Assembly: GCA_949299755.1 (NCBI GenBank)
Contig: CASGBA010000001.1
Location: forward strand, 186,001-250,000
DNA from: an uncultured Treponema sp.
GTDB lineage: Bacteria > Spirochaetota > Spirochaetia > Treponematales > Treponemataceae
Length of the DNA stretch: 64,000 bases
Reading direction: 5' to 3'
The notes under the pieces: model-generated
Seen by the model: the letters and a program-made list of their open reading frames with translations, nothing else
What the model was told of the DNA's origin: nothing
The model's database searches: none
Position numbers and translations under genes: made by a program
In this document: positions 47,138 through 57,836 of the stretch, one piece after another
Position numbering within the stretch: the stretch's first letter is position 1
How the letters are laid out: each line of letters starts with the position of its first letter

Positions 47138-47734
47138 TTATTTGAAGTTTAATCCGACAAGATAGGTCTCAAAGCTTTCCCGGCGGCAAGCTTCCGGCTT
47201 GAAAGCCCTGGCGGAAACAAAAAGCCCCTTCATTTTTGCCAACAGATTACGTTCTCCGCCACCCTGGAAAATTTTAACCGCAAAATTGCCCCCCTTGTCC
47301 AGCATTTCCTCACCGTAAGAAAGAGCCAATTCTGCCAAACCTTCACTTCTGAGGGAATCCACAGTACGGTTTCCGGTGGTCGCCGGTGCGGCATCGCAAA
47401 TCACCAGTGAATAGGGACCACGGATTTTTACTTCCCGGCGTATTTCCGGGGAATAAAGGTCGCCCTGGAAAAAACAAAGCCTTTCCGAATTGACCGCACC
47501 GGCAAGAGGGGATAAATCCACCGAAACAACCCTTCCTGACTTTCCGCAGTGTTCCAGGGCATACATCGTCCAGCTTCCCGGGGCGGCACCCAAATCCAGG
47601 ACGGAAACACCATCTTTGAATAGAAGGAATTTCCTGTCCATTTCCTCCAGTTTCCATACAGACCGGGCCGGATACCCCTGCGCAAAGGCTTTTTTACTCC
47701 AAAAATCAGGTTTTTTATAGCTATTTGACGGCAC
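47138..47734 (-). CDS. rlmE: 23S rRNA (uridine-2'-O)-methyltransferase family (RlmE/FtsJ)
   Basis: About 198 residues from the GTG at 47734, which follows GGAGAAGTCT. The N-terminal FWSKKAFAQGYPARSVWKLE and the SAM motif VLDLGAAPGSWTMYAL are the FtsJ signature, with catalytic K-D-K (core KKA-like, SLVICDAAPATTG, NFAVKIFQ). It methylates U2552 of 23S rRNA. A longer frame to 47899 would overlap the divergent polyprenyl synthase gene and is not likely. Confidence 0.88.
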   Translation of the reverse strand: MPSNSYKKPDFWSKKAFAQGYPARSVWKLEEMDRKFLLFKDGVSVLDLGAAPGSWTMYALEHCGKSGRVVSVDLSPLAGAVNSERLCFFQGDLYSPEIRREVKIRGPYSLVICDAAPATTGNRTVDSLRSEGLAELALSYGEEMLDKGGNFAVKIFQGGGERNLLAKMKGLFVSARAFKPEACRRESFETYLVGLNFK

Positions 47735-47761
47735 AGACTTCTCCGAAAATAAAACGTGCAG

Positions 47762-47767
47762 TATAAT
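47762..47767 (+). promoter_or_regulatory. -10 element (TATAAT) immediately before the polyprenyl synthase gene
   Basis: Perfect TATAAT ends four bases before the ATG at 47772 and seven before an alternative ATG at 47775. The -35 (TTCTCC at 47739-47744, 17 bases away) is weak. No Shine-Dalgarno is present, so the mRNA is probably leaderless. Confidence 0.5.
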
Positions 47768-47771
47768 TAGT

Positions 47772-48806
47772 ATGATGAATATAGAATATAAACGAAGACT
47801 TGAAAAGATTGAATCTGTCCTCCGTGGAGCCCTGCCGGAAAAACCGGACAAAACCTGGGCAAAGGAAGTGTTTTCAACCCTTCCGGATGGAGTGGACACG
47901 GATCATTTAAATCAGCTTACGGAACCTTGCAGAAACCTGCTTTTACGTGGAGGGAAACGGTGGAGACCGCTGTTGTTGGTATTATCCTGCGAGCTTGCCG
48001 GTTCAGATCCGGAAACAGCCTACCCTCTGGTACCCGCAGTGGAATTCACCCATACGGCAAGTTTAATCCACGATGACATAGAAGACAATGGGGAAGAACG
48101 GCGCGGAGATAAATGCATACATCTCCTGTACGGTGAGGATGCGGCCATCAATTCCGCATCCTGGCTTTATTTTCATGCCCAAAGTTGTATAGCCGCTTAT
48201 GAAGCGGCTCCTGGATTAAAACTACGTTTGTTCTCGATTCTGAACCGGGAGCTCCGACGGCTCCATCTGGGACAATCGATGGACATTATGTGGCACAGGA
48301 ACCACAACTTTATACCTTCCCGTAAACAATACGAGGCGATGGTCAGACTGAAAACCGGAACCCTGTCCAGTTTGGCGGCGGAAATCGGAATGGCGGCAGG
48401 CGGAGCCGAAGATGACAGCATTTCCTCAATGGGGAAAGCGGCCGCGGAAATAGGAGCCGCTTTTCAGATTCTGGACGATGTTAAAAACCTGACGGAAGGA
48501 AATCCGGGAAAAAACCGGGGAGATGACATTGTGGAAGGAAAAAAAAGCCTTCCGGTAGTAATCCACGAAGAAAGGGGAGGAAAAAATTTGAGGCCTCTTT
48601 TCGAAAAAGCCGGGGTGGAAGGGATAAACTCTCCGGCTGTGGAACAGGCTATTTCACTTCTTAAAGAATCCGGAGCCGTACAGCAGGCTTCGGAATACGG
48701 AAAAAACCTAGCTGAAAACTGTATTAAAACCATAAGAAAACGGTGGAACGGAAACTCCGCGGCGGATTTAATCGCAGGACTTTTTGAAGCCATGCTTTTA
48801 GGGTGA
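47772..48806 (+). CDS. Polyprenyl synthetase (trans-isoprenyl diphosphate synthase)
   Basis: A 344-residue enzyme. The first Asp-rich motif is LIHDDIEDNGEERRG and the second is FQILDDVKNLTEGNPGKN. These bind Mg-diphosphate and place it in the E-isoprenyl diphosphate synthase family. The long-chain (quinone, undecaprenyl) or farnesyl choice cannot be told. ATG at 47772 or 47775. Coupled to the TPR gene downstream. Confidence 0.9.
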   Translation: MMNIEYKRRLEKIESVLRGALPEKPDKTWAKEVFSTLPDGVDTDHLNQLTEPCRNLLLRGGKRWRPLLLVLSCELAGSDPETAYPLVPAVEFTHTASLIHDDIEDNGEERRGDKCIHLLYGEDAAINSASWLYFHAQSCIAAYEAAPGLKLRLFSILNRELRRLHLGQSMDIMWHRNHNFIPSRKQYEAMVRLKTGTLSSLAAEIGMAAGGAEDDSISSMGKAAAEIGAAFQILDDVKNLTEGNPGKNRGDDIVEGKKSLPVVIHEERGGKNLRPLFEKAGVEGINSPAVEQAISLLKESGAVQQASEYGKNLAENCIKTIRKRWNGNSAADLIAGLFEAMLLG

Positions 48807-48829
48807 TGTTATGGAACAGGAGAAAAATC

Positions 48830-49366
48830 ATGCTTAACCATTCAGATTCCCCTGCATTTCTTAATGCCAATGCCATAATTCTGGCGTCGGAAGGAAAACA
48901 CAGGGAAGCTATTTCATGCTTTTTTCAAGGGCTGCGGCTTGATCCGGAAAACCCTACCCTGTGGTATAATCTTGCCCTGAGTTACAGGGCCATAGGGGAA
49001 TTGGCAAAGGCAAAAGAAGCCCTTATAAATTCCATCGAATTTGACTCCTCAGATCCCGATGTACTTGATTCCATGGGCGTGATCCTGCACGAAATCGGGG
49101 AAGACTTAACGTCTGAATTTTGTTTCAAAAAAGCAATTGAAATTGATCCGGGTAACGGACGGATATGGAATAACTTCGGGGTTTTGTCTTTCGACAGAAA
49201 AAACTACAAGGAAGCGGCCCGGGCATTTGAAACAGCTGTTTCACTGTTGAAAGAGGATGAATCCGGAGATTCGTTGGTTAACCTCCGGGACACTTACAAC
49301 GAACTTGGGGAAACAGAAAAAGAAGAGAAATGCAGCATGTTGATTCAAAAACTGGGAATAAAATAA
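48830..49366 (+). CDS. TPR-repeat protein
   Basis: About 178 residues from the ATG at 48830, preceded by AGGAG. No signal peptide. It contains four or so tetratricopeptide repeats (AIILASEGKHREAISCFFQG; LWYNLALSYRAIGELAKAKE; IWNNFGVLSFDRKNYKEAAR). Likely a cytoplasmic scaffold; the partner is unknown. Confidence 0.75.
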   Translation: MLNHSDSPAFLNANAIILASEGKHREAISCFFQGLRLDPENPTLWYNLALSYRAIGELAKAKEALINSIEFDSSDPDVLDSMGVILHEIGEDLTSEFCFKKAIEIDPGNGRIWNNFGVLSFDRKNYKEAARAFETAVSLLKEDESGDSLVNLRDTYNELGETEKEEKCSMLIQKLGIK

Positions 49367-49372
49367 CCTGCA

Positions 49373-50236
49373 ATGATATTTTTATATATATCTGAAATTG
49401 TAGGCAAACCCGGTATTTGGTGCATTAAAACAATGATTCCCTTTTTAAAAAGGGAATTCAATCCGGATTTAACCGTCATAAACGTAAACAGCGCAACCGG
49501 AGGAAACGGCATAGGGAAACAACACGCGGGATACCTGCATAAACTGGGCGGGGATGTTTTAACCTCAGGTTACTCGGTTTTTTTGAAAAAGGATTTATGC
49601 GGAAACATCGACAAGATTCCATATCTTATAAGACCGGCGAATCTTCCGGACAACACTCCAGGAAAAGGTTTTATTATAAAACATACTGAAAACAGACAGG
49701 AAGCGGCGGTAATTTCCTTTACCGGAACATTTTCGCCATCACGCCTTCATGGGGAAAACCCCTTTTCCTGTTTTTCCAAAATCATTGGAATTGTCAAAAA
49801 AAGAACACCTTTTATTCTGGTGGATTTACACGCCCTGATGACGGCGGAAAAAAGGGCTTTCTTTTACCATGCTGAAGGAAAGGTTTCCGCTGTAATAGGC
49901 TCCGGCGGAAAAATACAAACCACAGACGGAGAAATACTCCCCGGAGGGACCGCAGTTATTACGGACGCAGGAAGGACAGGAAGCCAGATTTCCGTTGGAG
50001 GTAATTCACCGGAGCCGAAAATTTTTGAATACCTGACCGGGGTACCTGACTGGACAAGGGAGTGCTGGACAAAACCTGCTGTCCAAGGCGTATGTGTTAC
50101 AACCGATGGAAATGGCAAGGCGGTACATATACAAACTTTTACACGTAAACCGGAAGACTTTTCGTTTTTTCCCTGTACAGGGGATAAACCGGATTCCGAC
50201 CGGGAATTCCGAAGGGAAACACAAGGAAATGAATAA
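49373..50236 (+). CDS. Degenerate YmdB-family metallophosphoesterase homologue
   Basis: A 287-residue protein clearly related to YmdB (2',3'-cyclic-nucleotide phosphodiesterase): IRPANLPDNTPGKGF, PFILVDLHALMTAEKRA, IQTTDGEILPGGTAVITDAG. Nearly all metal ligands are changed at matching positions: D8 is E8, the E39-N40 pair is N39-S40, N67-H68 is Y67-S68, and the THTH motif is SGGK (177-180). Only the middle His (H153) remains. It is therefore probably not a phosphoesterase. The C-terminal 40 residues are an extra charged tail. Function unknown. It sits six bases after the TPR gene. Confidence 0.8.
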   Translation: MIFLYISEIVGKPGIWCIKTMIPFLKREFNPDLTVINVNSATGGNGIGKQHAGYLHKLGGDVLTSGYSVFLKKDLCGNIDKIPYLIRPANLPDNTPGKGFIIKHTENRQEAAVISFTGTFSPSRLHGENPFSCFSKIIGIVKKRTPFILVDLHALMTAEKRAFFYHAEGKVSAVIGSGGKIQTTDGEILPGGTAVITDAGRTGSQISVGGNSPEPKIFEYLTGVPDWTRECWTKPAVQGVCVTTDGNGKAVHIQTFTRKPEDFSFFPCTGDKPDSDREFRRETQGNE

Positions 50237-50260: not shown

Positions 50261-50695
50261 ATGAAAATCAAGGCTGTTGTCGCGAAAATTGAAAAAGAGA
50301 AAATATGGCTTGGACGTATCGACGGCGGTGAAAATTCCTGCCGGGGATGTTCCGGTTGCGGCGGTGCGGATAAATGCGGTTTTAAAACCGGTCCGCTTTT
50401 TCCTGCATCCAACCCTTCAGGATATCCCGTAAAAACCGGAATGATAGTAACGGCATCCTGTTCCGCTTTAAAAACAGTTTTCCAAATTTTAATATCCCTT
50501 GTATTTCCTGTAGCCGCCGCAACCGCTGCATATATTTACGCTCCGACCGGAGAAACCGGCGGAATAAAAATAGCGGCAATGTTGGCTGCATTTACAATCG
50601 CTTCCGTTACCGTTATTTTTATGGCGGAATGGAAAAAAAAAGCCGGCGGATCCGGCTCAGGAGGGGAAATGGAAATAACGGAAATTCTGTATTAA
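50261..50695 (+). CDS. RseC/SoxR-reducing-system family membrane protein
   Basis: A 144-residue protein. An N-terminal domain with CRGCSGCGGADKC is followed by two membrane segments (VFQILISLVFPVAAATAAY; IAAMLAAFTIASVTVIFM). This is the RseC layout, which in Proteobacteria links envelope stress and the Rsx/Rnf electron-transfer complex. Here no rse or rnf gene is near. Cys residues may carry a metal or be redox-active. Confidence 0.8.
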   Translation: MKIKAVVAKIEKEKIWLGRIDGGENSCRGCSGCGGADKCGFKTGPLFPASNPSGYPVKTGMIVTASCSALKTVFQILISLVFPVAAATAAYIYAPTGETGGIKIAAMLAAFTIASVTVIFMAEWKKKAGGSGSGGEMEITEILY

Positions 50696-50725: not shown

Positions 50726-51925
50726 TCAGCCAAACTCCATGGCGTAACGGTTAATTGTATCCGCCATATCGTCCAGGGAAACCTGTTCATCAATGGCACC
50801 CAACTCCATGGCCGCCCTGGGCATTCCGTAAACAATACTGCTTTTTTCATCCTGTCCAAGAGTACGGCTTCCGGCTTCATACAGGGAAGCCAGCTCAACA
50901 GCCCCGTCCCGGCCCATACCGGTCATAATAATCCCAAGAGCCCGGTTTCCGTATTCATTTTTTATTGACTCAAACAGTATGTCAGCGGAAGGTCTATGAC
51001 CGTTCCTCAAAGGTGCATCCGAAAGATGGGCTACGGCTGCAAGAGGTCTTTTTTCGACAGTCAAATGTTTGTCCCCTGGCGCTATTAAAATACGGCCGGG
51101 CTTTAACAAATCCCCCTCGTGGGCTTCCCGTACTTCCAGCCGGCATATTTTATTCAAACTGTTTGCGAATTCTTCTGTAAATCCCGGAGGCATATGCTGG
51201 ACAACCACAATGGGCTGCTTTATGTCAGGATTCAGTTTCGGAAAAACAGTGCGCAAAGCATTCGGTCCCCCTGTGGAAATGCCGATGGCGATAATCTCGA
51301 TTTTTCCCGGTTCCGCCAACCTTCGCAGTTTTCCTCGGGTTACCATGTGCTGAACAGGTTTGGAAAAAGAAGGTTCATTGTGGGAGAATGGAATTTCCTC
51401 CCGTTCCTGCACAGGATGGACGGTTCCATGGGCATCAAGGGGAGAGGAAACATATTCCTTTAACAAATCCAGGGGGATGGGTTTTGTTTTTCCGCTTTTC
51501 TTTAATTCATGGTACTTTCTGCCGAACCCCACAAGGAGGGAAATAAGTCTGTCCGCCACGGTATGTAAATCCGCGGATTCAGAACCGGAAGGCTTGGTGA
51601 CAAAATCCGAAGCTCCTTTCTCAAGGCATTCCATGGTGATGGAAGCCCCCCGCTTCGCAATACTGGAAAGAATTATCACCGGAGTTTCAAACCCTGCCTT
51701 ACGGCGCACTTCCAAAAACTCAAGTCCGTTCATTTCCGGCATTTCAATATCAAGGACTATCACGTCCGGTTCCTCAATACACAATCTCTGGAGAGCGAAC
51801 CGTCCATTCATCACTTTGTCCATCACCCTCATGGAAGGCTCGCTTTCAACTATTTTTGAAATAAGTGAACGCATTAATGCGGAATCATCAACAATAAGTA
51901 CAGAAATTTTATCACTTTGATTCAT
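50726..51925 (-). CDS. cheB: Chemotaxis methylesterase/glutaminase CheB
   Basis: About 399 residues from the ATG at 51925 (GGGGAGACAA upstream). The receiver domain has the phospho-acceptor Asp in VIVLDIEMPEMNG. The methylesterase has ISTGGPNALRTVF, VQHMPPGFTEEFA and MTGMGRDGAVE, the Ser-His-Asp triad. It removes methyl groups from chemoreceptors. Directly follows cheR. Confidence 0.95.
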   Translation of the reverse strand: MNQSDKISVLIVDDSALMRSLISKIVESEPSMRVMDKVMNGRFALQRLCIEEPDVIVLDIEMPEMNGLEFLEVRRKAGFETPVIILSSIAKRGASITMECLEKGASDFVTKPSGSESADLHTVADRLISLLVGFGRKYHELKKSGKTKPIPLDLLKEYVSSPLDAHGTVHPVQEREEIPFSHNEPSFSKPVQHMVTRGKLRRLAEPGKIEIIAIGISTGGPNALRTVFPKLNPDIKQPIVVVQHMPPGFTEEFANSLNKICRLEVREAHEGDLLKPGRILIAPGDKHLTVEKRPLAAVAHLSDAPLRNGHRPSADILFESIKNEYGNRALGIIMTGMGRDGAVELASLYEAGSRTLGQDEKSSIVYGMPRAAMELGAIDEQVSLDDMADTINRYAMEFG

Positions 51926-51950
51926 TTGTCTCCCCGCCAATCCAGGCCGC

Positions 51951-52766
51951 TCAAATATTCTTTTGATAGAGGCAGGCCCAGTCTGTTTTTAAGAAAACGA
52001 ATTTAGTGTCCATGCCGAAAAGGGATTCGGAATGACCTATGAACAGGTAGGATTTCGGAGACATGGCCCGCCAAAAGCTGTCTATCACGGATTTTTGCGC
52101 TGCTTCATCAAAATAAATAAGAACATTCCTGCAAAAAACTATATCCACATTTGAAAGATTTGACTCATGGGCAAGGTTATGATAGTCAAAACGTATCATA
52201 TCCATAAGTTCTTTTTTAACCTGCCAACCTTCCGCCTTCCTTTCAAAAAAACGGCTGAGATAAGCCTCAGGAACACCGGACATTTTTGAATCGGCATAAA
52301 AACCGGCCTTAGCCACCATCAGGCATTTAAGGGAAATATCAGAGGCTATTATTTCGGTTTGAAAAGAGGATGGCACCTTGTCTTTCAATATCATTGCAAT
52401 TGTATAGGGTTCTTCACCGGTGGAACAACCGGCACTCCAAACCCTGATTCGCTTGTCAATGGAAGAGCTTTTACGCTTAATGATTTCCGGAAGAATATAA
52501 TTCGTCAGGGCGTCAAAATGGGCTTGATTCCGGAAAAATCTGGTTAAATTCGTTGTGACGGAATCCAACATGGCGGTAAGCTCATTTTTGTCAGAAGAAA
52601 CGAGCTTAAAATACTCATCGACAGAATTAAGCTTTTTTATGCGCAGGGTCTCACGTATACGGCTTTCCAAAACAGAACGGTTGGTGTCGGAAAAGGTTAT
52701 TCCGCTTTCAGCATAAATGAGTTTTCGGAATTGCTCAAATTCCGCATCCGTGAGAAAAACAGGCAT
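51951..52766 (-). CDS. cheR: Chemotaxis protein methyltransferase CheR
   Basis: A 271-residue SAM-dependent enzyme that methylates receptor glutamates. The SAM site is WSAGCSTGEEPYTIAM, and VFCRNVLIYFDEAAQK is characteristic. The N-terminal helical domain is present (DAEFEQFRKLIYAESGITF). AGGAG precedes the ATG. Coupled with cheB 25 bases downstream. Confidence 0.95.
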   Translation of the reverse strand: MPVFLTDAEFEQFRKLIYAESGITFSDTNRSVLESRIRETLRIKKLNSVDEYFKLVSSDKNELTAMLDSVTTNLTRFFRNQAHFDALTNYILPEIIKRKSSSIDKRIRVWSAGCSTGEEPYTIAMILKDKVPSSFQTEIIASDISLKCLMVAKAGFYADSKMSGVPEAYLSRFFERKAEGWQVKKELMDMIRFDYHNLAHESNLSNVDIVFCRNVLIYFDEAAQKSVIDSFWRAMSPKSYLFIGHSESLFGMDTKFVFLKTDWACLYQKNI

Positions 52767-56306: not shown

Positions 56307-57836
56307 ATGAACATGATTCTGTACATCATACTCCCCGCTGCCGGATTGATTCTTGGATGGTCTATTCGCTGGCTGTATGCCAGATTTCAGTTGTCTGCGT
56401 CAGAACAAAGAGCTAAAAGGGTCTTGGAAGATGCAGTTAAGGAAGCAGAAGCACAAAAGAAGGAAATTCTTTTAGAAGCAAAAGAACAGCTAATTCGGGA
56501 AAGAAATCAGCAGGAACGGGAAAACCGGGAACGTCGTAATGAATTACAGCGTTACGAACGTAGACTCACTCAAAAAGAAGAGACCTTGGACCGCCGGGTT
56601 GAAGGTTTGAATAAACAGGAAAAAGCCATAGGCGAACAGGAGAAGGTTCTTGCTGAACGGGAACAGTTTCTCGAAGGAGAAGAGCTGAGATACAGGCAGG
56701 AACTGGAGCGAATTTCAGAGCTTTCAGCTGAGGAAGCTAAGAATTTAATCATCAAAGATTTGGAAAATGACGCCCGTCACGATGCGCAGGTAATCCTCAA
56801 CAAAATTGAACAGGAGGCCCAGCTTTCATCAGAAAAAAAAGCCCGGGAAATCCTTGTTTCCACAATCCAGAGAATTGCCACGGAAACAACCGGTGATGTG
56901 ACGGTCGCCACAGTCAGTCTCCCCAGCGATGAAATGAAGGGCCGTATAATCGGACGCGAAGGCCGGAATATCAGAACATTGGAAACAATGACAGGCGTGG
57001 ATATCATTATCGATGATACGCCGGAAGCTGTTGTCATTTCCTGCTTTGACCCGGTCCGGAAGGAAATAGCCAAACTTTCCCTCGAAAGACTTGTCCTTGA
57101 CGGACGCATTCATCCTGCAAGGATTGAAGAAATCGTACAAAAAGTGACCAGGGAAATCAACCAGAAAATTTACGAGGAGGGGGAACAAGTCCTTTTCGAA
57201 CTGGGAATCCATAACATGAGCCAGGACGGTGTAAGGGCGTTGGGCCGGCTGTTTTTCCGGACAAGCTATGGACAGAATGTCCTTACCCATTCAAAAGAAG
57301 TGGCCATGATAGCCAGTATGCTGGCGGCGGAAGTAGGCGCAAACAGGGAAATAGCAAAACGCGCCGCACTTCTTCATGATATCGGCAAGGGTGTGGAAAA
57401 TGATTCGGATCAGAACCATGCGGAAGCCGGCATGGAAATAGTCCGAAAAATGAATGAAGATCCCAAGGTGATAAACGCGGTTGGCGCCCACCATAACGAT
57501 ATCGAAGCCACAAGCATTGAGGCTGTGATTGTACAGATTGCGGATGCCATTTCCGCGGCACGACCCGGAGCCAGACGTGAGACCCTGGACAACTACGTCA
57601 AACGGCTGGAAAACCTGGAACAAATCGCCGAACAATTTGACGGGGTTGAAAAAGCTTATGCCATCCAGGCAGGCCGGGAACTGAGGGTAATCGTGGACAG
57701 CGATAAAATCCCTGATGCGAACGTTAAAAATCTGAGCAGAGATATTGCGAAAAAAATTGAATCGGATCTCCGCTATCCTGGAAGAATTCGTGTCACCTTA
57801 ATCCGGGAAACCAGGATTGTGGAATACGCCCGCTAA
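56307..57836 (+). CDS. rny: Ribonuclease Y
   Basis: A 509-residue endoribonuclease of mRNA turnover. It has an N-terminal membrane anchor (MILYIILPAAGLILGWSIRW), a long coiled coil (residues 30-160), a KH domain (GRIIGREGRNIRTLETMTGV) and an HD domain (ALLHDIGKGVENDSDQNHAE). Length and order match the family. In Bacillus the neighbour is ymdB; here the only YmdB homologue is the degenerate copy 6 kb away. Confidence 0.96.
   Translation: MNMILYIILPAAGLILGWSIRWLYARFQLSASEQRAKRVLEDAVKEAEAQKKEILLEAKEQLIRERNQQERENRERRNELQRYERRLTQKEETLDRRVEGLNKQEKAIGEQEKVLAEREQFLEGEELRYRQELERISELSAEEAKNLIIKDLENDARHDAQVILNKIEQEAQLSSEKKAREILVSTIQRIATETTGDVTVATVSLPSDEMKGRIIGREGRNIRTLETMTGVDIIIDDTPEAVVISCFDPVRKEIAKLSLERLVLDGRIHPARIEEIVQKVTREINQKIYEEGEQVLFELGIHNMSQDGVRALGRLFFRTSYGQNVLTHSKEVAMIASMLAAEVGANREIAKRAALLHDIGKGVENDSDQNHAEAGMEIVRKMNEDPKVINAVGAHHNDIEATSIEAVIVQIADAISAARPGARRETLDNYVKRLENLEQIAEQFDGVEKAYAIQAGRELRVIVDSDKIPDANVKNLSRDIAKKIESDLRYPGRIRVTLIRETRIVEYAR

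Follow-up and report, generated by a model that had tools for sequence, protein, structure and literature searches.

The YmdB-like gene and its surroundings

The window analysed here is a stretch of 64,000 nucleotides from an uncultured Treponema species, and the subject of this analysis is an ATG-start open reading frame on its forward strand (49373-50236) that encodes a protein of 287 amino acids. We refer to this protein and its orthologues as W, the window-type YmdB paralogue, and to the canonical YmdB copy as C. The gene lies in the following surroundings.

47772-48806, forward strand: polyprenyl synthetase (ispA-like), upstream in the W cluster
48803-49366, forward strand: TPR-repeat protein, ending 6 bp before W
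49373-50236, forward strand: W, a YmdB-fold paralogue without the canonical metal and catalytic residues, identified by Pfam, 4b2o alignment, AlphaFold and structure comparison
50261-50695, forward strand: RseC/MucC-like Cys-rich protein, the next gene after W, placed by its homologues
56307-57836, forward strand: RNase Y (rny), about 6 kb downstream of W

The match of the RseC-like protein (50261-50695) to PF04246 itself has an E value of only 0.0016, below the cut-off. The genes cheB and cheR are found on the minus strand between the W-RseC pair and lptCAB (50726-52766), a placement that recurs in other families (L186, L137). At the other end of the cluster an FtsJ-like methyltransferase gene (47138-47899) and the polyprenyl synthetase gene (47772-48806) are divergent and their listed starts overlap, which probably places the true start of the FtsJ gene further inside.

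By sequence W is a member of the Pfam family PF13277 (YmdB), matching positions 1-252 of the 253 in the profile with 234.9 bits (E 1.2e-69) and so covering the full domain well above the curated cut-off of 27. Comparison with the sequence of Bacillus subtilis YmdB (4b2o) gives an E value of 1.9e-45 and an alignment that is free of gaps over residues 3 to 104. The AlphaFold (AF2) model, built from a 59-row alignment of relatives, has a pLDDT of 92.1 and a pTM of 0.88, with low confidence around residues 260-287. A Foldseek search with this model returned 4b2o as the top match (E 5.9e-27), and VIA-align superposed the two structures with a Z score of 39.6 at 2.1 Å over 262 residues, with 36% identity. 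The predicted structure of W is an intact YmdB fold. In the long W frames L130 and L132, where a fusion to another domain was considered, YmdB is the only domain detected. The locus-relative search for the window found one close relative only.

The NCBIfam model TIGR00282 has a curated cut-off of 254.15 bits that W does not reach (168.4 bits). The scores are 153-226 for three other W of the class, 215 for a W-like copy found outside it, and 258-404 for five C. The cut-off fails as a clean divider between W and C, since the canonical copy of the window genome also falls short of it at 222.5 bits.

Metal and catalytic positions

The YmdB site is described in the MslH study as consisting of Asp8, Glu39, Asn40, Asn67, His150, His175 and His177, with an acid/base dyad formed by His68 and Asp71 (PMC10406935). 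Alignment places the corresponding codons of W, together with two positions that distinguish the group, as follows.

49394-49396, forward strand: codon 8, E for the metal ligand D8 (E in 82/84 W; D in 52/52 C)
49487-49492, forward strand: codons 39-40, N-S for E39-N40
49523-49525, forward strand: codon 51, H51, a signature of the W group (81/84; no H among the C residues listed there)
49571-49576, forward strand: codons 67-68, Y-S for N67-H68 (H68 in 0/84 W)
49583-49585, forward strand: codon 71, L for the dyad partner D71
49829-49831, forward strand: codon 153, H equivalent to YmdB H150, the sole unchanged ligand
49901-49912, forward strand: codons 177-180, SGGK for THTH (H175 becomes G178, H177 becomes K180)
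49973-49975, forward strand: codon 201, R for the canonical M of DxGMTG (R in 81/84 W; M in 48/52 C)

The window protein therefore lacks the bimetal centre as it is known from YmdB, with one of the seven ligands unchanged (H150), the conservative exchange of D8 for E, and no H, D or E at the positions equivalent to 39, 40, 67, 175 and 177. The dyad is replaced by S68 and L71, and no other conserved histidine cluster was seen in the alignment of W relatives. Chance is excluded as the source of this pattern, because the fold is intact along with the flanking motifs, and an orthologous group of 84 sequences has the core changes in common. We infer that phosphodiesterase activity would be gone in W.

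An earlier note, made from the DNA sequence of the window, had reported the replacement of D8, E39, N40, N67 and H68 by E, N, S, Y and S and of THTH by SGGK, within an alignment free of gaps through residue 70 and with the surrounding fold motifs kept. The 4b2o alignment bears out each of these substitutions, its gap-free part runs beyond residue 70, the flanking motifs are intact, and the proposed structure prediction and superposition lead to the same family. The retention of H150 and the loss of D71 were absent from that note. Its description of nearly all ligands as lost is correct for the window gene but does not extend to the group, and the conservation that it suggested examining divides in the same way, the core changes (E8, loss of H68) being group-wide and the losses at the second metal site not.

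This division emerges from an alignment of 84 W from the class, 3 W-like sequences from outside the class and 52 C, with sequences shorter than 240 amino acids left out. All eight of the residues D8, E39, N40, N67, H68, H150, H175 and H177 are present in 52/52 C. Among the 84 class W, E occupies position 8 in 82, D in one and Q in one, H68 is present in none (one row is gapped there), and H68 together with D or E at position 71 is absent from 83, the remaining row being the one gapped at 68. Position 177 is never H but R (51), K (27), G (5) or L (1). The group has a conserved set of its own, comprising K57 (83 of 84), R201, H51 and T42 (81 each) and K12 (74).

The pattern at the second metal site is more varied, with H150 present in 61/84 W and H175 in 52/84. 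When a possible site 2 is counted as E/D39, E/D/N67, H150 and H175, all four candidate residues are found in 46/84 W and one at most in 24/84 (21 with one and 3 with none; the 24 include L079, an incomplete frame whose row has gaps). Over 80 W rows H150 and H175 co-vary, both being present in 52, neither in 17, H150 only in 11 and H175 only in 0. The strongly depleted state requires at least four changes on the W tree and is found in Borrelia-like genomes, two genomes of family f4, genome G016 and a set that joins genera g15 and g20 to the window genus. The losses at the core (the dyad, H177 and D8 to E) therefore look ancestral to W, and the window gene looks like a late extreme. The candidate site-2 ligands were, on this alignment, dropped later and repeatedly, in the window lineage among others, and many W relatives may still hold one metal. 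A loss peculiar to the window gene is rejected, the core substitutions being common to the group; W is a class-wide paralogue with old key substitutions rather than the product of a recent loss in one gene. The W of genus g20 (L070, L071, L073) carry some 30-35 extra residues just before the TAYITDAGRTG motif.

Distribution, neighbourhood and selection

The window genome encodes a second YmdB that has all the canonical ligands (G000:C8:10511-11323). This C begins inside the end of a gene for a Metallophos_2 calcineurin-like phosphoesterase (L080:5709-6467), the two forming a tandem of metallophosphoesterases on contig C8 of that genome. YmdB occurs in 40/145 genomes of the window family, with W and C together in 38 (one copy being a fragment in some incomplete genomes), W only in 2 (G022 and G057) and C only in 0; neither copy is found in 105/145. 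Matches to the W alignment are present in 161/241 genomes of the order and 265/297 of the class, a single match being found in 29/265 class genomes, most of them incomplete drafts. A search of the phylum, restricted to genomes at least 90% complete (n = 246), gave matches in 160, 87 within the class and 73 outside it. Of the 87 in the class, 85 carry at least two matches and 2 a single one; of the 73 outside, 69 carry a single match and 4 carry two. Inspection of ten of the single copies found outside the class showed every one of them to be canonical, and families f47 and f59, likewise outside it, include three genomes that have a W-like copy in addition. Retention of W is class-wide and includes genomes of 0.9 Mb.

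In a tree of 127 sequences, calculated by a quick method after near-duplicate and short rows had been removed, one branch with an SH-aLRT of 99 parts W (81 rows, 3 of them from outside the class) from C (46 rows). Judged by this tree and the residue pattern, W is an ancient YmdB paralogue kept across the class Spirochaetia beside the canonical C. Broken copies of either kind were observed: in the single-contig genome G018 the canonical ymdB is split into two overlapping frames (L074) and W is intact, and in G070 it is W that is split (L079).

The two copies are found in different neighbourhoods. A TPR gene lies immediately upstream at 44/85 W loci and 0/51 C loci, and an RseC-like gene immediately downstream at 64/86 W loci and 0/50 C loci; the window itself is outside these counts, and the RseC model was made from three sequences, two of them within the count. 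A cluster in the order ispA-TPR-W-RseC-CheB/CheR-LptC-LptA-LptB is found in much of the window family. In Bacillus, ymdB directly follows rny. The same position is occupied by C at 10/10 loci outside the class and at 3/3 long-flank loci of the class outside the window's order, and none of the C loci examined within that order has rny beside it. W is not the gene directly after rny and is near rny in part of the treponemes only. RNase Y is weakened as a positional partner of W, rny being followed by C outside the order, and RseC is weakened as an obligate partner by its persistence in most genomes without W; in position W is nevertheless closer to RseC than to C. In the Borrelia-type genome G426 the order, assigned by eye, is an lspA-like gene, a small gene, W and a murA-like gene, and by gene order this W would presumably be BB_0471. 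One report gives BB_0471 as a hypothetical protein (PMC6711536).

W is under purifying selection and is not decaying. Between the window gene and its G005 orthologue (NG86) dN is 0.14 and dS 1.60, a ratio of about 0.09, and for the corresponding C pair dN is 0.17 and dS 1.53, a ratio of about 0.11, both ratios being approximate because dS is near saturation. For pairs within g20 the same method gives dN 0.056 and dS 0.36 for W, and dN 0.010 and dS 0.14 for C. The ratio of about 0.09 and the class-wide retention rule out a recent pseudogene.

RNase Y is encoded in 143/145 genomes of the family and RseC in 120/145, whereas W is found in only 40/145, and at least two treponeme lineages have lost both W and C but retain rny. 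Mapped on an rny tree with 35 genomes of the family and 5 outgroup rows, the presence of the pair requires three changes, two of them forced by well-supported branches, which leaves two or three events only; one loss leads to a 1.1-Mb genome whose genus elsewhere retains the pair. The evolutionary distances of W and C are correlated when rny is taken into account (partial r 0.61, 0/3000 permutations) in a test of 13 genomes with few controls, in which the shared constraint of two paralogues could add to the correlation. The controls are lower, at 0.40 for W-TPR, 0.37 for C-TPR, 0.41 for C-ispA and 0.12 for W-ispA (the last two from 9 genomes). A 16-genome version gives 0.60 for W-C, yet W-rny given C is also 0.52. 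The W-C correlation beyond rny, with its lower controls, fits a functional tie of W to C more than to its neighbours.

Possible functions of W

The presence of a normal and an altered copy in nearly all spirochaetes of the class that have YmdB suggests that W retained a job without the original chemistry. W has the properties of a conserved pseudoenzyme, in that the catalytic residues are lost, the fold is conserved, selection is purifying and a paralogue with intact residues exists. The explanation that we favour, at about even chances for the whole, is that W is an ancient pseudo-phosphodiesterase, one that probably partners or regulates C without being catalytic itself. The two site-1 residues are replaced jointly, D8 by E and H177 by R/K, which suggests that a salt bridge between E8 and R/K177 may stand where metal 1 sat. 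The pocket would be kept, with W-specific positive residues holding a nucleotide or phosphate without cutting it, and W would act via C, either in mixed oligomers or by competition, the same ligand being held in a dead pocket, in the service of RNA or nucleotide turnover. The least certain part of this explanation is the step that makes W a binding partner. Against it stand the 46/84 W with four potential site-2 ligands, part of which may be metal enzymes, the separate neighbourhoods of W and C, the positional bond between W and RseC, the two genomes with W and no C (G022 and G057) and the broken C of G018.

The earlier note had proposed a pseudoenzyme with a binding or structural role, and the first half of this proposal is sustained by the group-wide loss of the dyad and H177, the intact fold and the purifying selection. 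It had also named a second, intact ymdB beside a decaying gene as grounds for abandoning the idea; the intact copy exists, but W is not decaying. The link to RNase Y that it drew belongs in the first place to C, which is the rny-linked copy, though rny does lie some 6 kb downstream of W.

A more elaborate form of the favoured explanation, which we regard as possible but on balance doubtful, would have a homomeric YmdB turned into an obligate pair of a catalytic and a dead subunit. The E8-R/K177 bridge would substitute for metal 1, H51, K57 and R201 would form a class-specific surface, W would determine how active the RNase Y-linked YmdB is or which targets it chooses, and the residual metal site would have been dropped several times independently. 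Inactive metallophosphoesterase folds serve as structural or regulatory subunits in VPS29 and the B-subunits of eukaryotic DNA polymerases. These differ from W in being eukaryotic and from other subfamilies, and we know of no YmdB case of a non-catalytic calcineurin-fold subunit.

B. subtilis YmdB shares with W the fold of the whole domain and the Pfam family, and differs from it in the metal ligands and the H68/D71 dyad that W has replaced, in its neighbourhood, and in that W has a canonical copy alongside. The spirochaete C is found in the same genomes as W, on the other side of one tree branch, and differs in keeping all eight residues and in following rny outside the order. According to one study, the phosphodiesterase activity of B. 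subtilis YmdB is required for biofilm control, and a link to the RNase Y-controlled sinR mRNA has been proposed, the target being unsettled (PMC6123443). No description of a second or inactive spirochaete YmdB was found in the literature searched, the coverage of which leaves most subscription journals outside.

An alternative that we consider rather unlikely is that W is an enzyme with new chemistry, built on an ancestral one-metal site 2 (E/D39, E/D67, H150, H175) together with R201, R/K177, H51 and K12, the window lineage having become metal-free. The retention of all four candidate site-2 ligands in 46/84 W and the near invariance of R201, H51, T42 and K57 would agree with this, and there is a precedent in the lasso-peptide epimerase MslH, which is described as nearest to YmdB, with a YmdB-like calcineurin fold and a single metal, Ca(II) (PMC10406935). 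MslH is also among the fold matches of the W model, and its one-metal site shows that the fold can serve another use. However, MslH is only about 13% identical to W and keeps both its Ca(II) site and the acid/base dyad (H88/D91, equivalent to H68/D71), whereas H68 is found in 0/84 W, and the site-2 ligands have been lost in several lineages in which the gene was kept.

The neighbourhood points to another alternative, unlikely in our estimate, in which W serves the cell envelope or redox control together with RseC, LptCAB and the TPR protein and without involvement of C. The RseC-like gene after W (64/86, against 0/50 after C), the TPR gene before it (44/85) and the proximity of LptC-LptA-LptB in many families are what this reading would predict. 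Against this, RseC is present in 120/145 family genomes and W in only 40, W vanishes with C and not with RseC or rny, and LptCAB and ispA are housekeeping genes, so that the neighbourhood may be passive.

It is very unlikely that W is an ordinary YmdB phosphodiesterase with ligands supplied from other positions: E8 and D/E67 could bind metal in many W, and H51 and D74 are conserved, but the window protein has neither the dyad nor any H, D or E at the five positions given above, and no other conserved histidine cluster was seen in the alignment. Decay of a redundant duplicate towards loss would account for the intact canonical copy elsewhere in the window genome, the individual broken W of G070 and the loss of both copies in some treponemes, but is hardly credible, since what is known of selection and retention (dN/dS of about 0.09, persistence in 0.9-Mb genomes) contradicts it already, as do the invariant residues specific to the group.

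A class-wide YmdB twin without catalytic residues would amount to a natural separation of binding from catalysis, and comparison of W with C would tell which surfaces matter. For annotation, W falls in a family named for metallophosphoesterases yet is without the catalytic residues. The three W-like copies from outside the class (L171, L172 and L173; families f47 and f59) have E8, D67 and R/K177 and no H68, and are missing the R201 and H51 signature; they form the basal branches of W in the tree and may show how W arose.
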